Source: a virus
Length of the DNA stretch: 64,000 nucleotides
Strand: one strand, 5' to 3'
IMG/VR virus record: IMGVR_UViG_3300043418_000072
Location: 62,001-126,000 of that record
Shown piece after piece: positions 43,512-62,150 of the stretch. Positions within the stretch are counted from its first letter, which is position 1. Every line of letters starts with the position of its first letter. The notes below the pieces were generated by a model, which saw nothing but the letters and a program-made list of their open reading frames with translations, did not search any database and was not told the DNA's origin. A program made the position numbers and the translations under genes.

Positions 43512-44603
43512 TCACAAGCTCAATTCGTCATCTTGCTTGTGAAGGTGTGCTTTTATTAATTTATCAATATATCCAAGGTTGCGTAAAACTTTGTAGGCCA
43601 AGTTTTCTACACCAAACTCACCGTATTGGTCTAGTCCACTTCTGCGCATCTTGCGGATCTTATCTGTAATGCGTTGTATGTCTGCTGAATCATCTGCGGT
43701 AGCTAATGCGGTATCGATTTGTTTAATTAGGTCGTGTACTTTGTGGTTAACCGCAGAATCATCAATGCTTGGTGGTTCAAACTTGGGTTCGTTAATCCAA
43801 CGATCGTTCAGGATACTGTAGACACCTGCACTAACTGGTGGTTCTTCAGAATCCTCTACATATAGTTCTACATCGTATCCACGAATGGTTACATCGTGTG
43901 CGTCATTCCATATTTGTTTTTTAGCACGATAAAACGCCGCAGCAATATCGTCGCATTGTAGGTCAGAGTAGCGAGTGACAATATGAAGGTCAAAATCGCT
44001 GTATTTCGTGTAGTTATAGTTACACATACTACCGGTTAAGACGATATCTAGCACCTTAAAGTCAGGTATTTCCAAGTAGTCTACAAACACCTTGGCGATC
44101 TGCATTAGCTTTAATTTAACTTCTGGACGTAAGCGATCGTTTTTCCATGCAGCAGAATTTAGGGTGTCGTGGTAAGCAATGTTGTTTTGTACGTATTCAA
44201 AGTCTTCTTTGATAATAGCAGGCTCGTTAAAGAACTTAGGGTACTTCTTGCCAAACTCACGCAAAACAACCCCAGCCATTGCGTTTGCTTCATTTTCTTC
44301 TGGACTACCTGTTGCGCCTGCGCCGGGTGGTAAACGATCTTCTTCGCGCTGCCGCCAATGCACTAGCTCGTGTGCTAGTGTACGTAGAATATCAATCGGG
44401 TGACGGTGTTCGATTGCAATGTAAATGGTTTCCGTTGCATCGTTATATGCACCAAAGCTACCTTGTTCATCATTGCCCGGCATTACTAGTACCGGGACAA
44501 TTTTAGGTAGCTTTTCAATCTCAAGGATGCGAACAGCGATAGGCAAAAACTTTGCTATCGCATGTACGAATCCCGAAGTTGATTTATCTGTGCTTCTTGG
44601 CAT
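43512..44603 (-). CDS. Zinc metallopeptidase-like plus nucleotidyltransferase fusion
   Basis: 363 residues from the ATG at 44603 (a TTG three codons upstream is possible). N-terminal domain: LAHELVHWRQREEDRL (HExxH) with a downstream Glu in GSPEENEANAMAG near 103-115 that could complete the zinc site. C-terminal domain: LTGSMCNYNYTKYSDFDLHI near 185-205 is the GS-x...DxD nucleotidyltransferase motif (Pol-beta/MNT-like), with YDVELYVED as third Asp/Glu strand. Fusion of a protease and an NTase is unusual. It lies at the start of the multidomain, possibly head-packaged gene set. Confidence 0.7.
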   Translation of the reverse strand: MPRSTDKSTSGFVHAIAKFLPIAVRILEIEKLPKIVPVLVMPGNDEQGSFGAYNDATETIYIAIEHRHPIDILRTLAHELVHWRQREEDRLPPGAGATGSPEENEANAMAGVVLREFGKKYPKFFNEPAIIKEDFEYVQNNIAYHDTLNSAAWKNDRLRPEVKLKLMQIAKVFVDYLEIPDFKVLDIVLTGSMCNYNYTKYSDFDLHIVTRYSDLQCDDIAAAFYRAKKQIWNDAHDVTIRGYDVELYVEDSEEPPVSAGVYSILNDRWINEPKFEPPSIDDSAVNHKVHDLIKQIDTALATADDSADIQRITDKIRKMRRSGLDQYGEFGVENLAYKVLRNLGYIDKLIKAHLHKQDDELSL

Positions 44604-45753
44604 CGTTGGCAAATTGTTTGTTAGTTGCTTTAACTATGCCACTAAATCGTTTGTTACCACGATCATACTCGCCACGCTTGTCGGATGCACTTGCATCGGC
44701 GGCAGCGGTTGTTTTGTATTGTGCTAACTTCTCATTAGACAATTCATTAATTGGATTGTCGCTAGTTGGCAATTTAGCACGTAGCTGATCTGCCATTTGT
44801 TTGAAGTGCTGTGCTTGGGTATCACGGCCATAGCGTTCTGCTTTAGCTTGACGCTTTTCGTAGTCAGTGATCTGTGCCCATAGTGCATTGTGCTTGCGCT
44901 CGTCTGCACCTTCTGCTACTTTATTAGTGTAATCGTCGCTCGGGCCGCTTGGATACTTCTCGTACTCAGTATAACGCTGTCTTGCCAACTTCTTGGCTTC
45001 TGGGTTAGCGTCACGTAATTGTTTGTATGTGCCCATGTGTTGAGCCATAATCTGTTCGGATGTGCCCACACGCACTCTTACAGGTAGATAATCTTTATAG
45101 CTTGGGCAGAACAATTTAAACAATGATTCGGGGTGTTTGACTTTATAGTACTCAACAGTGTCTGTCATCCACTGGTCAATGTCTGCTCTACCACGTGGGT
45201 AGTTCCCTGGATCGGCCATCTCCGGTTCTGGTGCTTTCTTCTTGAAGCGATCGAGGATACCTTCTTTAACTTCAGCAGGTGCAGCTAGTGTCATCTTGCT
45301 CATGCCCTTGCCCGATTGCTGCCAAACACGATACATTTTACCATCTGCACCTTTTAACACCATAGCATTGCCAGGAATACGACTAGAATCATATTGTACA
45401 ACCATGGCATTTTGTCCACCAACTCGAACGTGTGGTTTTTGGTCATCAAAATGTTGAGCTCCGACTGCTAGTGCGCCAGCAACAACCGGGGCGCCAAGTA
45501 ATGTAGCAGTATCTTTCCAGCTTTCTGGTAATTCGTGCCCTGTAACTTCCTCAACTTCGCCACCTGTGCTGTATACAATCTCTTCAATTTGATTAAAGAT
45601 TGAACGGGGAGCAGTCATGTAATCACCGGCCCAATCAATGTAGTTCCCAAACTTCTGCATTACATGTTCATATGAACGTTCACCGTCAATGACAAAAGTT
45701 ACGGTACTTTCTGTACCCTTGTTGAGCCCCTCAAATATCTGATTTAAAAACAT
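44584..45753 (-). CDS. Multidomain phage protein with short-leader N-terminus
   Basis: 389 residues starting MFLNQIFEGLNKG. Middle: GALAVGAQHFDDQKPHVRVG, IPGNAMVLKGADGKMYRVWQ; C-terminal third: NKVAEGADERKHNALWAQIT, DYEKRQAKAERYG and INELSNEKLAQYKTTAAADA. The KVAEG resembles the QGVAEG linkers of the next two genes, and the KLAQYKTA...KRFSGIVKATNKQF tail is a recurrent module in related freshwater phage proteins as I recall. Likely a virion or internal protein; inferred. Confidence 0.6.
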   Translation of the reverse strand: MFLNQIFEGLNKGTESTVTFVIDGERSYEHVMQKFGNYIDWAGDYMTAPRSIFNQIEEIVYSTGGEVEEVTGHELPESWKDTATLLGAPVVAGALAVGAQHFDDQKPHVRVGGQNAMVVQYDSSRIPGNAMVLKGADGKMYRVWQQSGKGMSKMTLAAPAEVKEGILDRFKKKAPEPEMADPGNYPRGRADIDQWMTDTVEYYKVKHPESLFKLFCPSYKDYLPVRVRVGTSEQIMAQHMGTYKQLRDANPEAKKLARQRYTEYEKYPSGPSDDYTNKVAEGADERKHNALWAQITDYEKRQAKAERYGRDTQAQHFKQMADQLRAKLPTSDNPINELSNEKLAQYKTTAAADASASDKRGEYDRGNKRFSGIVKATNKQFANDAKKHR

Positions 45754-45754
45754 G

Positions 45755-48109
45755 TTATACTCCGCCGCCGGCCTTCTTTATTAGTGTATTTAGTTGGGTA
45801 GCAGTTGACGGGTTTGACATAACATTACCAATGGCAGGAGCCATTGCAGCAATGGTATCTTTATCCATTGAATTCATTGGTGCACCGGTGTCAGTCTTTT
45901 GCAATGTCTGTGCTGCCTTAGCAGGGTCAATTTGCACCCCAGCGGTCTTTAAGTTAGCTAGATTTTGTTGTAGCTTGGCTTGATTTTGTTTAGCTGCCGC
46001 AGCTTGTGCTGGATTAGGTGCAGCGCCCGGGGCGGTTGCTTGTGTAGATGGTTGAGTTGCACCAGCTACGCCACCTGCGGTAGCAACAGGAGCAGGAACT
46101 GCTTCGTCAACTGTTTCTTGACCGGGGCAAATATCGTTGTAGTTGTCCATAGTCAATGTTTGACCACCTGCGCTTAATTTAATTAAACGTTCAGCAACGT
46201 CATGTAGATCCATATCTGTTTTGGCATCTTCGCGAGCATATTCAAACAAGCGAATCATTAATGGAATATCCATTGTAACTGTGTCAGTTGGGTTTGTCCC
46301 TTCTTCCATTGATTGCGCTGCTGCACGAATACCTATTACTGTAGCGTTCTTGCTGTCAGCCCACTTGTATGCTGCTTCTTGACTGCTGAATTCCTTGCGC
46401 CACATTACACGCTGATCGCGCTTGTTGTAAGCATAACCATATGCTTCAACGGCTGTGTCGTTTTGAATAGGCTGTGCTTCGTCGCTGTAGTTTTCTTGTA
46501 CCTGTGGTTCAACTAATTCGCCAATCTTGTTACGAATAAGACCAATTAGCTTGCGATGTGTACCAGTTAACACACGGTTCTTTTCAATGAAGTTAAGAAT
46601 GTGCTCTGTTTCTGCTTTATACTTTGCTCTCCACTGCGGAGTTCTAGCGGTAGTAATGTCCTTGACGTTGTCTAATCTATCGGCAAGTTTAATTACAAGA
46701 CCGTAGCTGCTCATTGCAGCCATCTTGTGTGCTAAGTACTGAGCCTTGCCCATCTGTTTAATTTGTTCAGGATCACTTGTTAGTTCTTGGACCAGGCTAG
46801 CAACTAGACCACCAAACAAGTCATGCAAAATCTCATGTGTAGTATCGGTATCTTCAACTGTGTCGTGCAAATATGCAGCACTAATTAGTGCTTCAAGGTT
46901 GTGAGATTGTTTATATTGTCTAATATGATCAGCAACACGCATCGGGTGAGTGATGTATGGATCACCACCGGCTCTAGTTTGACCAGCGTGAGCTTGAGTT
47001 GCGTACTGTAACGCTTCTTCCTCGCCTTCAGCCATTGGTCTATCTGCGCCGTTGATAGTAATCATTGGGTTACGAACACCCTTCTTCTTGCACCATGCTT
47101 CAACTTTAGCTTCTGCTTCTTCTGTTGATGTTGCTGTTACTGTGACAAAATGTGCGTCTGCCGCAGTAGGTCCGTACTCAACTGTTGCACGGTACTTGAC
47201 TGGTTGAGATTGTTCTTCCGCCACACCTTGCCTTGGTAATAACTTGTTAATAGTAGTTTTAACTTTCAATCCCTTTTGTGGATGGTCAAATATAACGCCA
47301 ACATCATTGATGTCTTTGATGAATGCAATTTTGCCTGAACCCTGATAGCCACGCACACAAACAGTATCGCCTACTTTATATTTGGGAGTTGCTGCGAATC
47401 CACCTCCGCCACCTAAGCCTTCCGCCACACCTTGCTGTTGTGGGTTGAACTCTAAGGCACCTTGTGTATTACCCATGATGATATTGGCAATCTTGTAGAT
47501 GTTGTCAAAGGTCAAATCAAAGTGACGCTCAAACGGATGACCTTTTAACAAACTAAATGTAGTGAGTAGTTTGCCTTTTATTTGTCCAGTAAAGCCGCCG
47601 CCAGTGTACTTACCAATTTGGATAGCTCCGCGAGTGCTATGCGCACCCTTACGACCTGCTCTAGTCTCGTAGTATGAGTAAAGCATTGTTGGACCAAACT
47701 CCATTGGGTCATGTGGAACAAAGCGGGCTTTGATTGTTGTCTTAACAACGTTTTCTACACAGTCAAAGTCTTTAGCTACGATTTGTTTTACTTGTTCGAT
47801 GAATTCTGCCCATGGAATAAACTTACGTGAGCCTCCACCTTCGTCTGGGGCAAATTCGTCTACTTGTTGTTTGTACTGCGCGAACTCTTCTGCAAGTGAA
47901 TGTTTAACTGCATTCTCGGTTAGTTCTTTTTCTAGATCAGCAAGCATGTTCTTGCTTTCTGCTGCGCCCACTAAACGACCAGCAAAAGGATGTTTACCAT
48001 CTTTACGCTTAGTGGCTTTTTCAGTACCGCGAACTTGATCGCCGGGTTTTTGTTCTGGCTCTCCAGCGAACTTGTTCATTGACTCTAGTAGTTTACGCAT
48101 ATCGCTCAT
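45755..48109 (-). CDS. Large multidomain protein with SpoT/MESH1-like HD domain and QGVAEG linkers
   Basis: 784 residues. N-terminal MSDMRKLLESMNKF segment; domain I about 95-220; QGVAEG at 226-231; a small SH3/KOW-like beta domain at 242-292 (YKVGDTVCVRGYQGSGKIAF); QGVAEE at 294-299; an alpha/beta domain at 303-358; MAEG at 359-362. An HD domain of the (p)ppGpp hydrolase type spans ~365-530: YATQAHAGQTRAGGDPYITH, LHDTVED at 414-420, and LVIKLADRLDNVKD near 471-484. Then a helical module (TDMDLHDVAERLIKLSAGGQ). The SpoT-type synthetase domain is absent. Overlaps previous gene by ATGA. Confidence 0.72.
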   Translation of the reverse strand: MSDMRKLLESMNKFAGEPEQKPGDQVRGTEKATKRKDGKHPFAGRLVGAAESKNMLADLEKELTENAVKHSLAEEFAQYKQQVDEFAPDEGGGSRKFIPWAEFIEQVKQIVAKDFDCVENVVKTTIKARFVPHDPMEFGPTMLYSYYETRAGRKGAHSTRGAIQIGKYTGGGFTGQIKGKLLTTFSLLKGHPFERHFDLTFDNIYKIANIIMGNTQGALEFNPQQQGVAEGLGGGGGFAATPKYKVGDTVCVRGYQGSGKIAFIKDINDVGVIFDHPQKGLKVKTTINKLLPRQGVAEEQSQPVKYRATVEYGPTAADAHFVTVTATSTEEAEAKVEAWCKKKGVRNPMITINGADRPMAEGEEEALQYATQAHAGQTRAGGDPYITHPMRVADHIRQYKQSHNLEALISAAYLHDTVEDTDTTHEILHDLFGGLVASLVQELTSDPEQIKQMGKAQYLAHKMAAMSSYGLVIKLADRLDNVKDITTARTPQWRAKYKAETEHILNFIEKNRVLTGTHRKLIGLIRNKIGELVEPQVQENYSDEAQPIQNDTAVEAYGYAYNKRDQRVMWRKEFSSQEAAYKWADSKNATVIGIRAAAQSMEEGTNPTDTVTMDIPLMIRLFEYAREDAKTDMDLHDVAERLIKLSAGGQTLTMDNYNDICPGQETVDEAVPAPVATAGGVAGATQPSTQATAPGAAPNPAQAAAAKQNQAKLQQNLANLKTAGVQIDPAKAAQTLQKTDTGAPMNSMDKDTIAAMAPAIGNVMSNPSTATQLNTLIKKAGGGV
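47215..47231 (-). repeat. 17-base repeat encoding the QGVAEE linker
   Basis: CTTCCGCCACACCTTGC, identical to copies at 47419-47435 and 48870-48886. On the minus strand it encodes QGVAE(E) between two domains of the HD protein. Confidence 0.85.
47419..47435 (-). repeat. 17-base repeat encoding the QGVAEG linker
   Basis: Second exact copy of CTTCCGCCACACCTTGC, encoding QGVAEG at residues 226-231 of the HD-domain protein. Confidence 0.85.
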
Positions 48110-49569
48110 TTGTAGATTCCTGTACCGATCTTAGGGGTTAAACGTTTTGCAACATTCTTTACACGCTTAGGAACACCTGTCCCTGGCTTGCCTGTTCCGC
48201 CTGCTGGGCCAGTAGCAAATCCACCTGCGCCTGTGCCGCCAGCAGTCATCTCGCTAACTGTTTGCTTGCCTTCAGCAACACCTTGACCTTTTAAGCTACG
48301 AGTAGCTGCATTCAATTGACTAATACTTACACTGCGAGTTGTATCGCTGTTCCAGATTAAGTCAACACGTAAAGGTCTGCCATTTTTATAAAAATGCAAT
48401 TCGTTGCTGGTAGTTTTGAAATTATCTGCACCATACTGACGTAACACTTTTACAGCGTCATTCAATGGCATTGTTTCTGCAACGCCCTCAGCAACACCTT
48501 GCTCCAAAAACTCTTCGTCGGTTAAATTACCGGCTAGCAATGCTTCTAGGGTGTCAATCTGTTGATTATAGATGTCGATTAGATATTCAATTTCCATGTC
48601 GTCGTAAGCATCTGAACCGTCATACCATGTTTCGTCAACTGCTTCTGCTTCGGCATCTGTCAGTCGACGCTTTTGTGCCAATAGCTTTTTCTCTAGCATG
48701 TTGGCAATAGGTGCATACTTACGCACAACCTGTTGCCACATAGGCTCTTGTGCAAACTCTGGAAACTGTGCAGCGGCACCTTCCACCGGATCAAAGTCCT
48801 GGAATAGGTTTAGTGCTAGCACATCCTTAACTGGCATGCCAGCTTTTACTAAGTATTCGTTTAGTTGGCCTTCCGCCACACCTTGCTCACCATCTTGTTG
48901 TGCTTTGGCAGCGGCCGCACGCTTCTTGCGGAAGATTTCACGGAAGTATGCTTCATCATCTGGGTTTACACCAGGTGTTTGTTGACCACGGTGTCTCTGC
49001 TTTGCAGGAGCATTACGAGCTGCGTAATAATCTTCGTCGCTGTCAAAGTTGCGTGGATCCACTTCGTTTACTTGTCCAGTGAAGCCTTTATATGCGCCTT
49101 TAACTGCGCCAGTTACGCCGCCAACAATCTTCTTGCCCACTTGCGCCATAAACGGAGTCTTCTCCTGTGGAGCAGTCATTCTGTCCACTGACTTACGTGC
49201 ATTAGCTTCTGCGTCACGCTGTACATCAGCCATTGAATAACCTTCTTCCAATGCAGCTTGCAATTGAGCTTCGGCTGATTCAAATGCAAATGTAGGCATC
49301 GCATGTAAGTCAACTTCTTTGTCTTCGTAGCTTAGGTATTCGTATACTGTACGTAGGTAATCGTTTGCAAGAGTAATCTTCTCGCTTACCCATCCCTCGA
49401 TGTTACCATTGTCGTTAGCTTGGGCTAGAATCTTGTGTAGCTTGATAGCGTAGTCTGCTGCGTGGTAGCAGTCGGCACGAGCCATTTGTACTTCGTGGTC
49501 TGAGTGCATTTCACCTGCATCTTGGGCGATAAATGCGTTGTGTTCTGTGATAAAATCTGTTGTCTTCAT
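48106..49569 (-). CDS. Multidomain phage protein with capsid-targeting-like start and QGVAEG linkers
   Basis: 487 residues starting MKTTDFITEHNAF, akin to the T4 IPI leader MKTYQEFIAEA. The helical N-terminal domain (MARADCYHAADYAIKLHKIL, WVSEKITLANDYLRTVYEYL) is followed by QGVAEG at 229-234, a second domain (QLNEYLVKAGMPVKDVLALN), EQGVAEGVAET at 356-366, a third small domain (DAVKVLRQYGADNFKTTSNE), QGVAEG at 429-434, and a Gly-rich basic tail. No enzyme motif. A late-type motif is at 49589-49595. Confidence 0.7.
   Translation of the reverse strand: MKTTDFITEHNAFIAQDAGEMHSDHEVQMARADCYHAADYAIKLHKILAQANDNGNIEGWVSEKITLANDYLRTVYEYLSYEDKEVDLHAMPTFAFESAEAQLQAALEEGYSMADVQRDAEANARKSVDRMTAPQEKTPFMAQVGKKIVGGVTGAVKGAYKGFTGQVNEVDPRNFDSDEDYYAARNAPAKQRHRGQQTPGVNPDDEAYFREIFRKKRAAAAKAQQDGEQGVAEGQLNEYLVKAGMPVKDVLALNLFQDFDPVEGAAAQFPEFAQEPMWQQVVRKYAPIANMLEKKLLAQKRRLTDAEAEAVDETWYDGSDAYDDMEIEYLIDIYNQQIDTLEALLAGNLTDEEFLEQGVAEGVAETMPLNDAVKVLRQYGADNFKTTSNELHFYKNGRPLRVDLIWNSDTTRSVSISQLNAATRSLKGQGVAEGKQTVSEMTAGGTGAGGFATGPAGGTGKPGTGVPKRVKNVAKRLTPKIGTGIYK
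48268..48288 (-). repeat. QGVAEG linker coding repeat (synonymous variant)
   Basis: Encodes GQGVAEG with different codons (GTT-GCT-GAA for V-A-E) from the exact 17-base copies. The synonymous changes show that the peptide, not the DNA, is what is kept. Confidence 0.75.
48481..48504 (-). repeat. QGVAEG linker coding repeat (synonymous variant, followed by second VAE)
   Basis: Encodes EQGVAEGV with codons GTT-GCT-GAG; the adjacent codons (48469-48480) add another VAET, giving two successive VAE sites. Confidence 0.75.
48870..48886 (-). repeat. 17-base repeat encoding the QGVAEG linker
   Basis: Third exact copy of CTTCCGCCACACCTTGC, in a different gene, encoding QGVAEG at residues 229-234. Confidence 0.85.
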
Positions 49570-49595: not shown

Positions 49596-49865
49596 TTACA
49601 CAATAAACTTGAGGCCTGCACCTTGTCCGTTTACTGCAACATTGTTAGTGATAAATTGTGCATCAGTGTTGCTGCATTTTTCAATACGTAATTCATGCCA
49701 GCCATTGTCTAAATAAACTTCAATGTGCTCACGGATATAGTGTCTACTGGTTTCCCAAATAAACGTGCGCTCCGTTAGCAGTTGGTCATCAATATAGACT
49801 CTGTATGCTGGCGGTGTTGTGTCCCACTTGCACCAAACGTCTACGTCAATGCAAGTGTGGTTCAT
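49596..49865 (-). CDS. Small beta-rich phage protein
   Basis: 89 residues (VDVWCKWDTTPPAYRVYIDD, TERTFIWETSRHYIREHIEV, GWHELRIEKCSNTDAQFITN). Beta-sandwich style with HELRIE; the family is probably a virion decoration or carbohydrate-binding module, as also for 51615-52085. ATGA overlap with the NTase gene. Confidence 0.6.
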   Translation of the reverse strand: MNHTCIDVDVWCKWDTTPPAYRVYIDDQLLTERTFIWETSRHYIREHIEVYLDNGWHELRIEKCSNTDAQFITNNVAVNGQGAGLKFIV

Positions 49866-51577
49866 TTTCTAGCCTTTAGGGTCGCTAACTGTTCTTGTAA
49901 CTGTGTTAAACGGCTTAATAACTGCTCTGCTTCTTTGATCTTGTGTTTAGGTAACTTACGGGTTAAGCCGTATGCTTTCATCATTTTAGGTAATGTGCTA
50001 GCGTCAACATCATTTTGATCGCCCATGGTGGCCATTACGTATCGTGGATCTTTGCTGTTGCTAACAACACCTACACCTGCTGCATCTTCGCCTAGTGGGT
50101 TATGCAATGCGCCCCACCCGGGATGACGTGGATCGTTAATGTCCAACGAGCTATCGTCTGCTGGTTTGCGTTTAGCTAACCGGTCTTTTTCATGTTCTTT
50201 GTCAATCAAGTCACCAACTAATGCTTTCATCGGATCAGTCTTGCGCAATTCTTCACGTGCTCTTAGCTGCGCCATGTGACGATTGAAGTCTGCCGCATTA
50301 AATGGGGCATTGTGGTCGTAGGCTTCATCAATGGCAGCATCTGGCAATTCTACATTAAATTTTATTGCAATTTCGGCTCTAAAATTGTCATATGCTTTGC
50401 TATTATCGAATATAAACGTGTGTGACATTCCGTGTTTGCTTGTTTGATTGCTCGGAAATTTAATAGTCTCGCCTGCATCGTTTACAAATAAGTATTGATT
50501 TCCACTTTTTCCAACTAGCGTTGCATGTATAAGATCGGAGTTGAGTGGTATGATTCTATTCTGAATCAGCATCAATGGAGTCACAATGTATTTTTTATTT
50601 TTTACTGGCGTACTAGAAAATCTATCTAGCCCGGTAAAATATTCAGCGGTGTGGTTATCTGATTCTAGCAATGTTCCATCAATGTAGTATGCTTCGAAGA
50701 TAGCCATCTTGTCTTCTATTGACAGCTCCTCACCCAACTCTGTCCACTGCGGGACTGCATTTTCATTGGCATGCTTAAAGTACTGCACTTCGCGCTCGTG
50801 CTTTTGTGCAGCGGCTTTAGTTGGGAAAGTACCTAGATTTTTGTTACCATGCTTACTAAGCAAACGGTACTGACTACCGTGTTTAACAATATGCTCGCTA
50901 ATACCAGGAATAGCACTTGCACTGTCTGTAGCATGTGGACTGATAGAGTCCTCATTCATTGGGATTTTGTCTAGGATACGGCCCACTTCTGGGTCATTGC
51001 GACCGTACATTTGCAATAGGTATTCGCCACGTGCTTTAGCATCGTTACGGATACTGTTCCACAATGCGCGATTTTCAGTGCCGTGGCTAGCATCGTATTG
51101 CTGACCATTGATTGTGATGACTTTCTTGCGTTCTGCTGCAATAATAACGTAGCCATGCTTATCGGCAGTTTGACACTTGTTTAGATCTTCAAACTTTTGG
51201 TAGTAACTAGGCTGGCCATCTTTCTTGTATGTGCCAGGCTTTAGGCGATCTGCGTCAGGGGCGCCAACTGCAACTACAAACACAGTAGATGCAGGGTCAA
51301 ATTGTGGAGGAAGGATGTAAGGGCTTTTAACTTCTAAGATGCGATCGTTAGGCACACCAGCGGCGTGCATTAACACTGTCTTGTCTGTGAAGTTAAAGGG
51401 ACTTTTAGGCAGCTCTGTCTTGTTGCTAGTTGCAATGTAGACGTTATCGCGACCGTATTTGGCTTGTAGGCTTTCAAATACGTCGCGATGTCCTAGATGG
51501 AAGGGCTGGAAACGCCCTGGGTAAATTACAACTACTTGCGGCTGTGCCGCTTCAGTAAACATTTCAGCAATAAACAT
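49862..51577 (-). CDS. NMNAT/PPAT-superfamily nucleotidyltransferase with capsid-targeting-like start
   Basis: 571 residues. Starts MFIAEMFTEAAQP, a possible prohead-protease leader (FTE before Ala). Residues ~15-180 form a HxGH nucleotidyltransferase domain: VVVIYPGRFQPFHLGHRDVF near 15-34 and a catalytic Lys region SNKTELPKSPFN; this superfamily includes NMN adenylyltransferase. C-terminal modules: KHGSQYRLLSKHGNKNLGTF, FPTKAAAQKHEREVQYFKH; a beta domain near 320-400; and a helical tail (EAEQLLSRLTQLQEQLATLK). May restore NAD or make a nucleotide sugar; substrate unproven. Confidence 0.75.
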   Translation of the reverse strand: MFIAEMFTEAAQPQVVVIYPGRFQPFHLGHRDVFESLQAKYGRDNVYIATSNKTELPKSPFNFTDKTVLMHAAGVPNDRILEVKSPYILPPQFDPASTVFVVAVGAPDADRLKPGTYKKDGQPSYYQKFEDLNKCQTADKHGYVIIAAERKKVITINGQQYDASHGTENRALWNSIRNDAKARGEYLLQMYGRNDPEVGRILDKIPMNEDSISPHATDSASAIPGISEHIVKHGSQYRLLSKHGNKNLGTFPTKAAAQKHEREVQYFKHANENAVPQWTELGEELSIEDKMAIFEAYYIDGTLLESDNHTAEYFTGLDRFSSTPVKNKKYIVTPLMLIQNRIIPLNSDLIHATLVGKSGNQYLFVNDAGETIKFPSNQTSKHGMSHTFIFDNSKAYDNFRAEIAIKFNVELPDAAIDEAYDHNAPFNAADFNRHMAQLRAREELRKTDPMKALVGDLIDKEHEKDRLAKRKPADDSSLDINDPRHPGWGALHNPLGEDAAGVGVVSNSKDPRYVMATMGDQNDVDASTLPKMMKAYGLTRKLPKHKIKEAEQLLSRLTQLQEQLATLKARK

Positions 51578-53195: not shown

Positions 53196-53951
53196 TCACG
53201 GTTTCACGATCTCGTGAATTTTTCCGACCATCCCCGGAGCAATCAATCCGATCATTGTTGTAATAGATGGGTCGTTGGTATAAACAAAACAACCCCATAT
53301 GTATTTCAATGGGCCCGATAACATGTTCATATTAGCTTTAGAAACTTTAACTTCGCTGCCCATTGTTTTTAAATAATTAACAATTGACTGCTTGGTTTCC
53401 ATGCTGTAGGATCCGTCTCTGAGCACTATCTTGTATTTGTATTCTTGCTTAGAATTAGGTGCTGCAATAATATGACCCGCTTCTAGCAATGCCTGCTGTT
53501 CCGGGCTAGCTGGTGTACTAATACTTAATAGTCTGCTAGCAATAGTTCGATCGTAGTTTAGTCTTGTGGCAATGTCTCTAAGAGTCTGCTCGTCTTTAGT
53601 ATAAACCTGTAGCCAGGGCTCCTCAATGCGCATTCGTATACGATTACCATATCCATTTTTGATACTGCGCAATTCTTCAAGGAATACAGGGTCTGATTTT
53701 TTTAGTTCATCTGCTTGCCGCAGTGCCCAATTGGATTGTGATGCCCAACTTCCGCCATAGTTAAAATGCTTTTGCTTAGATAGTCTGTCGGCTAAGTGAT
53801 TTGCAATGTAATCATTGGGCCTCGTGTCGGTGATAGACCTACTACCGTGAGCCTCTATGACCAGCTTATAACAAAACTGGCCATAGAACTGCTTACGTGT
53901 ATCTTCGCAAACGATCTTAGGATTTAGTTTGGTCCAGAACAATGAAACCAT
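53196..53951 (-). CDS. Conserved phage hypothetical
   Basis: 251 residues. FWTKLNPKIVCEDTRKQFYG near the start, KLVIEAHGSRSITD, AGHIIAAPNSKQEYKYKIVL, ETKQSIVNYLKTMGSEVKVS and CFVYTNDPSITTMIGLIAPG. Alpha/beta, soluble. Starts inside the last 35 bases of ClpA. I have seen the style in T4-like phages but cannot name it. Confidence 0.65.
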   Translation of the reverse strand: MVSLFWTKLNPKIVCEDTRKQFYGQFCYKLVIEAHGSRSITDTRPNDYIANHLADRLSKQKHFNYGGSWASQSNWALRQADELKKSDPVFLEELRSIKNGYGNRIRMRIEEPWLQVYTKDEQTLRDIATRLNYDRTIASRLLSISTPASPEQQALLEAGHIIAAPNSKQEYKYKIVLRDGSYSMETKQSIVNYLKTMGSEVKVSKANMNMLSGPLKYIWGCFVYTNDPSITTMIGLIAPGMVGKIHEIVKP

Positions 53952-56208
53952 CTTCGTTTACTGTAGGTTGTGGTGCGATGTCAAACGCTGATTGTGCTTC
54001 GAATGTAAACTCTTTATTAACATAGTCTACTACCATGATGGTGTTAGGACCAATGTTATCAAACAAGATTTTCTTACTCAATGGTACTTTAATCAAGTCG
54101 TTAATCTTACGTTGCACAGGGCGAGCACCCATCTTAGCATCAAAGCCTGTAGCAATGATTTCATCAATAGCCGACTCGCTCAAGCGCACTTTGATCTGAC
54201 GTTCTGCAAGCAACACGTTGATTTCGTTAACAAACTTGCTGACAATCTTGCGCATACTCAATTGGTCCAGCTTGTTGAACTTAACAATGCCGTCTAAGCG
54301 ATTGCGGAACTCTGGCTTAAAGAAGTCCTTAACTGCTTTGTCATCCTCGTCAGTCTTTTGCATACTGCGACCAAAACCAATGTTGTTACGCTCGTTTGCT
54401 GCTGCACCCAAGTTACTTGTAAGGATCACAATACAGTTACGGCAGTCAGCTTTCTTGCCGTTGCTGCTAGTAACCATACCTTCATCCATTAAGCTCAACA
54501 AGATGTTAGATACGTCGGGGTGAGCTTTTTCAATCTCATCCATTAAGATGATACTGTTAGGGCTTTTCTCAACGTCACTAATCAACATTCCGCCGCCCAA
54601 GTTGCCATCGTCGTAACCAACATAGCCAGGAGGCGCACCAATCAGTTTAGCCACGCTGTGCTTCTCTTGGTACTCGCTCATATCGTAACGCAACAGTTTC
54701 ATGCCCAAGTTCTCTGCAAGTAACTTAGCCAGTTCAGTTTTACCTGTACCAGTTGGGCCAAGGAACAAGAAGTTACCAACGGGTTTGTTCAAGCTCTTCA
54801 AGCCAGCTCGTGCCACGTAGATCTTTTCCAATACAGAATCAACCGCTTGGTCTTGTCCATACAATTTAACTTTAATGTTGCTTTCAAGGTTAGTGATTGC
54901 ACCACCATTGTTGGTATTACCAATTTGTTCAACCGGGATCTTAGTAAACTTGCTGATTGCATCCACAATATGGCTACGTGTAACAACAAAGTCCACAGTC
55001 TTAATCTTAAGACGAGCACATGTGCTGTCAATCAAGTCAATTGCTTTGTCAGGCAGCTTCTTGTCAGTTTGGTAACGAACGCTAAGATCAACTGCTGCGT
55101 CAATAGCTTCGTCTGTAATAACGCCACCATGGAATGATTCGAACTTCTCTTTGAGACCTTTAAGAATATCCTTAGCAACTGCTGGAGTTGGCTCATCAAC
55201 AGTAATACGCTGGAAACGGCGCATCAATGCACGATCCTTCTCAAAGCTCTGGCTGTATTCTTCCCAAGTTGTGCTTGCTAACACTTTGATTTGGCCTTTA
55301 GTCAATGCAGGCTTGATCATATTACCAAAGTCGACGCTGCTGTTGCTACCAGAACCTGCCCCACGCATCTGGTGCGCTTCGTCAATAAACAAAATTGCCT
55401 TGCCTTTTGCTTTGAGACCTTTAATAACGTCTTGGAACTTTTCTTCAAACTCGCCGCGGTACTTAGATCCAGCAAGCAAGCTACCAATGTCCAAGTTGTA
55501 GACAGTGTGGTCTTTCAAGTACTCAGGTACAGTGCCGTTGACAATGTTAAGGGCAAGACCTTCTGCAATGGCAGTTTTACCTACACCGGGATCGCCAATC
55601 AACAACACGTTGCTCTTGTTACGCTTAGCCAACACTTCTGCAATTTCGTCCAGCTCGTATTCGCGACCAATTACTGGATCGATGGTGCCTTCGATTGCCT
55701 GCTTGTTTAGATTAGCACAGTACTGCTCAATGAACTCGTCTGCTTTCTCTTTGCCAGCTTCTTTGCGATGTGCTTCTTCTGTATAGTGCTTGTTGTAGTA
55801 GTCGACAAGTTTTGCACGATCCATGCCGTACTTGACCATGAAGTAGTGTGCATAGGTGCTGTTCTCAGAGTGCAAGCTCAGGAACAAGTCAATGACTTGA
55901 ACGTGTGTACGTGCAGAAAATAACACTTGCGTAAATGCTCGATTAAACACACGCTCCAGCGCATGAGTCTTCTTTGGCTCAGTAACATCGGGGTTAACCA
56001 AGTCTGTTAGGCCTGCAATGTATGTTTCGAGGTCTTTGACCAAGCCATCAGTATCGATGCCGTAGCCGTAAATCAATTCATTGAATGGCTTGTATTTAAC
56101 AAGACAGAGCAACATGTGTTCTGCAACCACGTACTCGTGTTTGTGTTCTTTTGCAAGGTTTGTTGCTTCTGCAACGATGTGGTCAATTTCTGGATTAGTT
56201 TGTAGCAT
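53917..56208 (-). CDS. clpA: ClpA-like AAA+ unfoldase
   Basis: 763 residues. N-terminal Clp_N-like helices (1-150). AAA1: Walker A GDPGVGKT at 205-212, Walker B ILFIDEAH at 272-279. AAA2: Walker A GPTGTGKT at 484-491, Walker B SIILMDEIEK near 552-561. C-terminal D2-small domain. A tripeptide IGF at 610-612 (ERNNIGFGRS) corresponds to the ClpP-docking IGL/IGF loop of ClpA/ClpX, absent from ClpB, so it may dock onto host ClpP. Next to a DnaJ. Phage-encoded ClpA-type unfoldase is unusual. Confidence 0.88.
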   Translation of the reverse strand: MLQTNPEIDHIVAEATNLAKEHKHEYVVAEHMLLCLVKYKPFNELIYGYGIDTDGLVKDLETYIAGLTDLVNPDVTEPKKTHALERVFNRAFTQVLFSARTHVQVIDLFLSLHSENSTYAHYFMVKYGMDRAKLVDYYNKHYTEEAHRKEAGKEKADEFIEQYCANLNKQAIEGTIDPVIGREYELDEIAEVLAKRNKSNVLLIGDPGVGKTAIAEGLALNIVNGTVPEYLKDHTVYNLDIGSLLAGSKYRGEFEEKFQDVIKGLKAKGKAILFIDEAHQMRGAGSGSNSSVDFGNMIKPALTKGQIKVLASTTWEEYSQSFEKDRALMRRFQRITVDEPTPAVAKDILKGLKEKFESFHGGVITDEAIDAAVDLSVRYQTDKKLPDKAIDLIDSTCARLKIKTVDFVVTRSHIVDAISKFTKIPVEQIGNTNNGGAITNLESNIKVKLYGQDQAVDSVLEKIYVARAGLKSLNKPVGNFLFLGPTGTGKTELAKLLAENLGMKLLRYDMSEYQEKHSVAKLIGAPPGYVGYDDGNLGGGMLISDVEKSPNSIILMDEIEKAHPDVSNILLSLMDEGMVTSSNGKKADCRNCIVILTSNLGAAANERNNIGFGRSMQKTDEDDKAVKDFFKPEFRNRLDGIVKFNKLDQLSMRKIVSKFVNEINVLLAERQIKVRLSESAIDEIIATGFDAKMGARPVQRKINDLIKVPLSKKILFDNIGPNTIMVVDYVNKEFTFEAQSAFDIAPQPTVNEDGFIVLDQTKS

Positions 56209-61514: not shown

Positions 61515-62150
61515 TTATTCCGCTTTTGTATTATTTAGCCCGCTTGCTGTTCTAACTACAAGGTCTAATGGCTGATCCCCTACTGCGGAAAAATACTTAG
61601 CATTGGGATCTTGTGACAATATTTCATCTAGCTTAACTGGATCGACATGCACCGGAAACTCTAGCTGTTTAGCAATACTCTTAATATAATTTGCTTTATA
61701 CAAATACAATAACTCAGTGCTTAGGTATACTGGATTGTGTCCCATTAAATATGGAATAGCTTTTTCAAAGTGCGGTAAAGTAATCTGTCCGCGCAATCTA
61801 GTCTGCTGATGCTCTAAGATGTTTTTGTCTCTACCAATTATTGCAAATTTTAAGTTATACCCTATGTCTTTTGCTGCGTTAACAAAACCTTTATAATCCG
61901 GGATTGATACGCTTCCTTTATACATATAGGGGCAGCTTATGCTAGTAAACGCAAACTTATCAAACTGTATGTCTTTAAGTGAGAGAGGCCGACGCCAAGC
62001 TTCGGCAAATGGTTCTTGATCGTGTGGCGCCCAGTAATTATTTGTTAGATAGTCCCACCCAAACACATTTGCATTGGCTGCAAATATTTTTGAAAATAAA
62101 TGATTCCCGGACCCCTGGGGGCCGGTTATCACCAATAAGGTTTTTGACAT
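61515..62150 (-). CDS. P-loop kinase or sulfotransferase-like protein
   Basis: 211 residues. LLVITGPQGSGNHLFSKIFA at the N-terminus is a Walker-A-like loop (GPQGSGNHL) with a variant ending. Remaining: FAFTSISCPYMYKGSVSIPD, FAIIGRDKNILEHQQTRLRG, YLSTELLYLYKANYIKS. The IGRDxxILEHQQTR part resembles the 3' motif of sulfotransferases. Could be either; overlaps TctC (TGATG). Confidence 0.6.
   Translation of the reverse strand: MSKTLLVITGPQGSGNHLFSKIFAANANVFGWDYLTNNYWAPHDQEPFAEAWRRPLSLKDIQFDKFAFTSISCPYMYKGSVSIPDYKGFVNAAKDIGYNLKFAIIGRDKNILEHQQTRLRGQITLPHFEKAIPYLMGHNPVYLSTELLYLYKANYIKSIAKQLEFPVHVDPVKLDEILSQDPNAKYFSAVGDQPLDLVVRTASGLNNTKAE
61532..61538 (-). promoter_or_regulatory. Late-promoter-like motif CTAAATA
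   Basis: Minus strand CTAAATAATAC, 22 bases before the ATG at 61510. Confidence 0.5.

Follow-up and report, generated by a model that had tools for sequence, protein, structure and literature searches.

Repeated in-frame QGVAEG linkers bound exchangeable modules in putative head-packaged polyproteins of a T4-like jumbo phage

Introduction

Internal head proteins of T4-type phages, their processing by the prohead protease gp21 and multi-domain proteins injected by phages are already known. In T4, the internal proteins IPI-III and Alt carry a short leader ending in hydrophobic-x-Glu (hxE), the first 10 residues of IPIII, known as the capsid targeting sequence, are enough for targeting (PMC9026906), and maturation by gp21 proceeds through cleavage after L/I-x-E (PMC9026906). 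Here we describe two adjacent phage genes whose 784- and 487-amino-acid (aa) products repeat a QGVAE(G/E) linker between unrelated modules. They lie in a stretch of 64,000 nucleotides, positions 62,001 to 126,000 of IMG/VR record IMGVR_UViG_3300043418_000072 (hereafter the window), and the record as a whole, of 354,098 bp (G000), was analysed through pattern searches and chosen stretches. As with the T4 internal proteins, their leaders end in hxE and a T4-type capsid and gp21-family protease are encoded in the same or closely related phages; head packaging is predicted here. Only terminal propeptides have been described in the T4 proteins, whereas the linker phages have up to six internal linkers between different modules, a standard linker peptide, and shuffling of modules at the candidate cut sites.

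Polyvalent proteins likewise combine a number of unrelated domains in a single phage polypeptide, presumed to be delivered along with the DNA, and Iyer et al. (2017) already draw the polyprotein analogy for them (PMC5512222). A zincin or assemblin peptidase is common in such proteins, if not universal; neither these nor any other peptidase family was found above cut-off in the two window proteins, a match to DUF6782 (E=0.003) falling below it. Here the prohead protease would instead do the processing in trans, and its sites would be the conserved linkers that separate nearly all modules. The head proteins of phiKZ-like phages and SPN3US are also cut by a Glu-specific prohead protease, with several sites in ejection proteins (PMC10052503). 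Their sites are A/S-x-E, with A or S at P3, whereas P3 is V, I, L or M in the linker phages, and their additional sites fall within propeptides, which are removed (PMC10052503).

The DUF6321-containing modular proteins of Kyanoviridae share modules and hxE boundaries with the window proteins. Those inspected have no QGVAEG repeat, and we found no description of their processing in open-licence papers, the literature covered by all our searches. At the DNA level, the PeSL cassettes of T4-type phages, which are intergenic units of promoter and stem-loop, are short repeats that appear to mediate modular exchange. The linker repeat differs in being coding rather than intergenic: it is read in frame inside open reading frames (ORFs), where it specifies a candidate protease site. 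Within the open-licence literature, QGVAEG had no full-text match, and no prior account was found of a phage cargo polyprotein in which a cut-site linker doubles as an exchange junction. A preliminary description of this DNA, which knew of no such arrangement, is consistent with this.

Results

QGVAE starts at residues 226 and 294 of the 784-aa protein and at residues 229, 357 and 429 of the 487-aa protein, the same five places given in the preliminary description, and the KVAEG and MAEG variants it reported nearby were located in the neighbouring 389-aa ORF and at residue 359 of the 784-aa protein, respectively. The genes, linkers and modules are as follows, an arrow marking each candidate cut.

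45755..48109, minus strand: 784-aa modular protein with two QGVAE linkers and one MAE↓G site
47417..47434, minus strand: its QGVAE↓G linker, residues 226-231
47213..47230, minus strand: its QGVAE↓E linker, residues 294-299
47024..47035, minus strand: its MAE↓G boundary, residues 359-362, abutting the HD domain
46580..47014, minus strand: its HD phosphohydrolase domain, residues 366-504 (PF13328, E=3.4e-15; phrog_990, E=1.4e-31)
48106..49569, minus strand: 487-aa modular protein with three QGVAEG linkers; relatives L149 and L184
49543..49569, minus strand: its N-terminal leader MKTTDFITE↓H, resembling the T4 capsid targeting sequence
48868..48885, minus strand: its linker 1, QGVAE↓G, residues 229-234, DNA CAAGGTGTGGCGGAAGGC
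48502..48867, minus strand: its mobile module QLNE↓YLVKAGM...NLTDEEFLE, residues 235-356, present in the 784-aa homologue of L149
48484..48501, minus strand: its linker 2, QGVAE↓G, residues 357-362, followed directly by GVAE↓T, DNA CAAGGTGTTGCTGAGGGC
48286..48474, minus strand: its small alpha/beta module TMPLNDAVKVL..., from GVAE↓T366 to linker 3, predicted local distance difference test (pLDDT) score of the model 70-82
48268..48285, minus strand: its linker 3, QGVAE↓G, residues 429-434, DNA CAAGGTGTTGCTGAAGGC
44584..45753, minus strand: 389-aa modular protein (phrog_26930) with leader MFLNQIFE↓G and a C-terminal module after NPINE↓LSNEKLAQYK
44908..44922, minus strand: KVAE↓G junction (KVAE↓GADERK) of the 389-aa protein; in relative L160 the module follows a leader

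Three of the window linkers are identical over 17 bases (GCAAGGTGTGGCGGAAG), as first noticed, and the other two use GTTGCT. The degenerate pattern CARGGNGTNGCNGARGG has 4 matches in the whole 354-kb record, all of them in frame within the two linker genes, and its reversed control has 0, so that the window linkers are not chance occurrences. Matches to GGNGTNGCNGAR number 9 in the whole record, 6 of which lie inside the same two genes. The adjacent GTTGCT linkers are rare variants within one gene, which hints at local copying.

Two or more distinct domains occur in one polypeptide, namely the HD domain and other recurrent modules; the 487-aa protein matches no Pfam or PHROG family above cut-off. 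AlphaFold models of both proteins are poor (mean pLDDT 41 and 36), the confident part being residues 365-428 of the 487-aa protein. For its module at residues 366-428 the predicted order is helix, strands, helix. When this model was searched against PDB folds nothing significant came back, and weak HicA-like matches (6g26, E=1.1) offer no more than a lead.

Comparison with related phages revealed that the linker proteins are built as strings of small modules, the same ones recurring in varied order. L149 encodes proteins 89-95% identical to those of the window, and the module YLVKAGM...NLTDEEF is absent from its 487-aa homologue (359 aa) and present in its 784-aa homologue (846 aa). There it stands in place of the KYKVGDTVCVRGYQ module, and the two breakpoints both fall within linkers. 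L184 has a different segment of the 487-aa homologue exchanged, and the sites at its ends, LEE↓G and (V/M)NE↓V, are hxE sites without QGVAE. The 286-aa protein of L160 consists of a leader and modules known from the 389-aa and 784-aa proteins of the window. Modules have thus moved exactly from linker to linker in close relatives, and we infer recombination at the linker as the mechanism of shuffling. The claim that the linkers separate domains is borne out by these swaps and by the HD domain directly following MAE↓G.

The linker is widespread in related phages, where the same domains recur in other orders and genes. A scan of IMG/VR with CAAGGTGTNGCNGAAGG matched at least 120 stretches. Among the matches listed, the in-frame 18-bp linker CAAGGTGTGGCGGAAGGC is present in at least about 100 phage contigs with up to 6 copies per gene, and at least 49 ORFs at loci from among them carry two or more linkers, some having six. 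Of 222 near-identical copies, 218 keep the reading frame of their ORF; some single matches, for example in GC-rich ORFs, are probably due to chance. In 84,980 bacterial and archaeal genomes the exact 18-mer gave 26 isolated matches and no arrays. The 18-mer looks virus-specific, and the cellular matches look like chance.

Codon usage was determined for linkers whose positions are not fixed by the search pattern. The linker valine is GTG in 84% of cases against a background of 24%, the alanine is GCG in 84% against 11%, and the glycine is GGT in 92% against 45%; GTT, which accounts for one third of valines overall, is absent at the linker valine in these sets. Information content rises sharply at -2 nt and falls at about +17 nt. 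Because synonymous sites are this strongly conserved, the linker is selected or spread at the DNA level too. The preliminary description had concluded from codon differences that the peptide is selected; constraint on the peptide was upheld, and selection on the peptide alone was rejected, since synonymous positions are conserved across relatives. The simplest DNA-level role would be that of a recombination junction. The linker GTG was also weighed as an internal translation start; on inspection this was discarded, as the abutting AAGG is too close to serve as a ribosome site.

To describe constraint on the peptide we used linker variants with up to 3 DNA mismatches and imposed no condition on the peptide. 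The P1 Glu is hardly ever lost and the P3 Val is swapped for Met, Ile or Leu, while P2 is often changed (Ala to Glu, Ser, Val or Gly), as are P4 and P5; P1 and P2 differ significantly in constraint (Fisher p=0.0008). Since P1 and P3 are held while P2 and P4 vary, the pattern under constraint is hydrophobic-x-Glu. The same signature emerged when 151 linker proteins were compared all against all and the ends of local alignments were scored. GVAE-type linkers account for 26% of ends (6.6% expected, about a fourfold excess) and hxE sites for 54% (25% expected); hxD, hxK and hxQ show no excess in this set. The hxE excess persists after GVAE-type linkers are masked (z about 8).

Individual modules follow the rule closely. 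All 23 distinct contexts of the LSNEKLAQYK module have [ILV]-x-E ahead of it, x being one of nine residues; they include leaders (FLTE↓), linkers (GLNE↓) and NPINE↓ of the window. An hxE likewise stands before the modules WSEKYK (11/12), NPHNYDSD (7/7), HD (5/5), WKDTATLL (4/4) and FAPDEGGG (5/5), and before about 26 of 28 DUF6321-type modules, cyanophages included. The Glu is at a constant offset within each of the LSNEKL, WSEKYK, NPHNYDSD and HD modules, and the spacing is looser or weaker for AYGYAYNKRD, VTMDIPL, CPHCGGPM and QRLDPKCW. The rule also extends to boundaries where the QGVAEG DNA is absent, and one and the same module may follow a leader or a linker (MKINEILTE↓GSDERK and NKVAE↓GADERK; MKPSDFLTE↓LSTEKL and GLNE↓LSNEKL). 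The likeness of VAE↓G to T4-type protease sites, pointed out from the window by itself, appears to be part of a general I/L/V/M-x-E pattern.

The leader ending in ITE that had been noted in the second gene is MKTTDFITE, and such leaders are enriched across the family. An hxE ending at residue 6-13 is found in 32/55 multi-linker proteins compared with 165/633 control ORFs (p=3e-6); with D, K, Q or N in place of Glu, enrichment in the same comparison is not significant. Other leaders resembling the T4 capsid targeting sequence include MRAQEFITE, MKLSEIIIE and MKPSDFLTE. Leaders of the T4 type are also present in the 784-aa protein (MSDMRKLLE↓S) and in a further window protein:

49862..51577, minus strand: 571-aa protein with a cytidylyltransferase domain (PF01467, E=1.5e-5) and leader MFIAEMFTE↓A

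The gp21 family (PF03420) was detected in 5/40 records, the same five having an adjacent gp23 (PF07068) and most of the others being short fragments. Among further long records bearing the modules it was found in 11/15, including the close relative G041 (matching proteins 89-95% identical), in which the order of protease, scaffold and capsid protein is intact and the gp21 homologue lies at L275:811-1446. A separate gp22-like scaffold gene adjoins the protease, and the major capsid proteins of these phages have a conserved L-x-E↓(N/S)A site. In both G000 (L276) and G041 (L275) the gene after the major capsid gene encodes a desaturase-like membrane protein with histidine-box motifs, an odd place for such a gene.

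A tblastn search with a linker polyprotein found the modules in 369 phage records, nearly all of them T4-like cyanophages. The modular protein gene of S-RIM8 lies downstream of the genes for the tail sheath stabilizer and the terminase small subunit. ORF29 of S-SCSM1 (SSCSM1_29) shares modules and hxE boundaries, has VSE↓GAAWTK as one of its hxE sites, and is annotated 'virion protein'; 45 virion proteins of this phage were detected by mass spectrometry (PMC9602691), and the annotation presumably derives from those data. Proteins resembling cytidylyltransferase/NMNAT, the class of the 571-aa domain, have repeatedly been found in cyanophage virions (PMC3037559, PMC10665884, PMC9602691).

Beside the polyprotein genes, a 366-aa ORF (43512-44612, minus strand) carries an HELVH zincin-like motif (weak phrog_87), and another part of it resembles nucleotidyltransferases (phrog_36119, E=4.9e-51). 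Elsewhere in the window, 53917-56208 (minus strand) encodes a ClpA/B-like ATP-dependent protease ATPase (phrog_4871, E=5.7e-242). Outside the window, at about 151-154 kb of G000 (L146, L147), more than 15 small minus-strand ORFs of 70-156 aa form a tandem array. Nearly all end in a motif like (F/M)xL(R/K)W(S/A/G), and several hold unrelated phage gene fragments; a Walker A segment of ATPase type and pieces of the capsid protein gp23 are among these. The array looks like repeated capture of gene fragments before a conserved tail.

Discussion

We consider it likely that the linker proteins are internal-head cargo polyproteins of a T4-like jumbo phage, ejected from the head after being cut in trans by a gp21-type protease. 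Their short leader at the N-terminus, with (I/L)-x-E as its last residues, would direct them into the prohead core, and during head maturation the protease would cut after each accessible hydrophobic-x-Glu, removing the leader and freeing modules of 50-170 aa, among them the HD phosphohydrolase and many domains of unknown function, to be packaged with the DNA and then injected. QGVAEG would be the standard cut-site linker of this lineage. Because the 18-bp DNA is near-identical at each junction and in frame, it would let homologous recombination add, remove and exchange modules among polyprotein genes. The proposal of head-packaged, protease-cut polyproteins made in the preliminary description gains support from the constraint at P1 and P3, the hxE boundaries, the leaders, the gp21 and gp23 genes and the cyanophage annotation.

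Several observations weigh against this interpretation. Cleavage is predicted here from a sequence signature, albeit a strong one, and the structure models are too poor for judging whether the linkers are exposed. V at P3 is outside the published T4 consensus (L/I). The hxE motif is short and frequent inside modules too, where folding must shield the sites, and non-hydrophobic xxE shows a smaller excess at boundaries as well. No obvious leader is present in 23/55 multi-linker proteins. Finally, the prohead protease was located beside gp23 in relatives, while the window's own record has no PF03420 match and breaks off inside gp23 (L143, L276); judging from the relatives, its protease gene would lie beyond the end of the record.

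Alternatively, the linker could be an exchange point at the DNA level only, providing microhomology, with proteins that stay intact and an incidental likeness of VAE to gp21 sites. The sharp-edged conserved block (about -2 to +17 nt), the synonymous positions conserved far above background and the movement of whole modules from linker to linker would all be expected from this, but it leaves the leader enrichment unexplained, as well as the retention of [ILVM]xE, with P2 free to vary, at boundaries that lack the QGVAEG DNA and the hxE excess that persists without GVAE linkers; we regard it as unlikely. Similarly improbable is that the proteins are prohead core components which, like T4 gp22 and gp67, are cut into several fragments most of which leave the head (PMC9026906). 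Such components obey the same protease rule, yet an HD phosphohydrolase is a folded domain of an enzyme family and this, like the rapid swapping of modules, suggests cargo rather than scaffold; moreover, these phages have their own gp22-like scaffold gene beside the protease.

Two further explanations have little probability. Known polyvalent proteins have 2-15 domains, and their injection has been predicted (PMC5512222); QGVAEG might be an ordinary flexible linker in intact proteins of that type packaged with the DNA. Flexibility, however, requires neither a Glu at a fixed position nor that the same Glu should end the N-terminal leader, which makes this very improbable. The least probable is cleavage of the linkers by a zinc metallopeptidase such as the product of the 366-aa ORF, which has an HExxH motif and a weak match to the phrog_87 metallo-protease family. 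Zincins are thought to process some polyvalent proteins (PMC5512222), but it is the gp21 family that has hxE specificity, and most long contigs carrying the modules contain PF03420.

The phages may even possess a combinatorial cargo system, in which one 18-bp in-frame repeat is both the head protease site that releases injected effectors and the recombination junction between genes and phages; we would give this extended proposal even chances. In its logic such a system would resemble gene cassettes, with protein domains as the units exchanged. Host defence is met first by the proteins that phages inject, of which the majority are unknown. Were the proposal true, the signature of hxE boundaries, T4-type leaders and QGVAEG repeats would allow the large proteins labelled 'hypothetical' in jumbo phages and cyanophages to be divided into true mature units and make hundreds of injected domains recognisable, and the linker would be a clear case of a protein-processing site and a DNA exchange site residing in one sequence.

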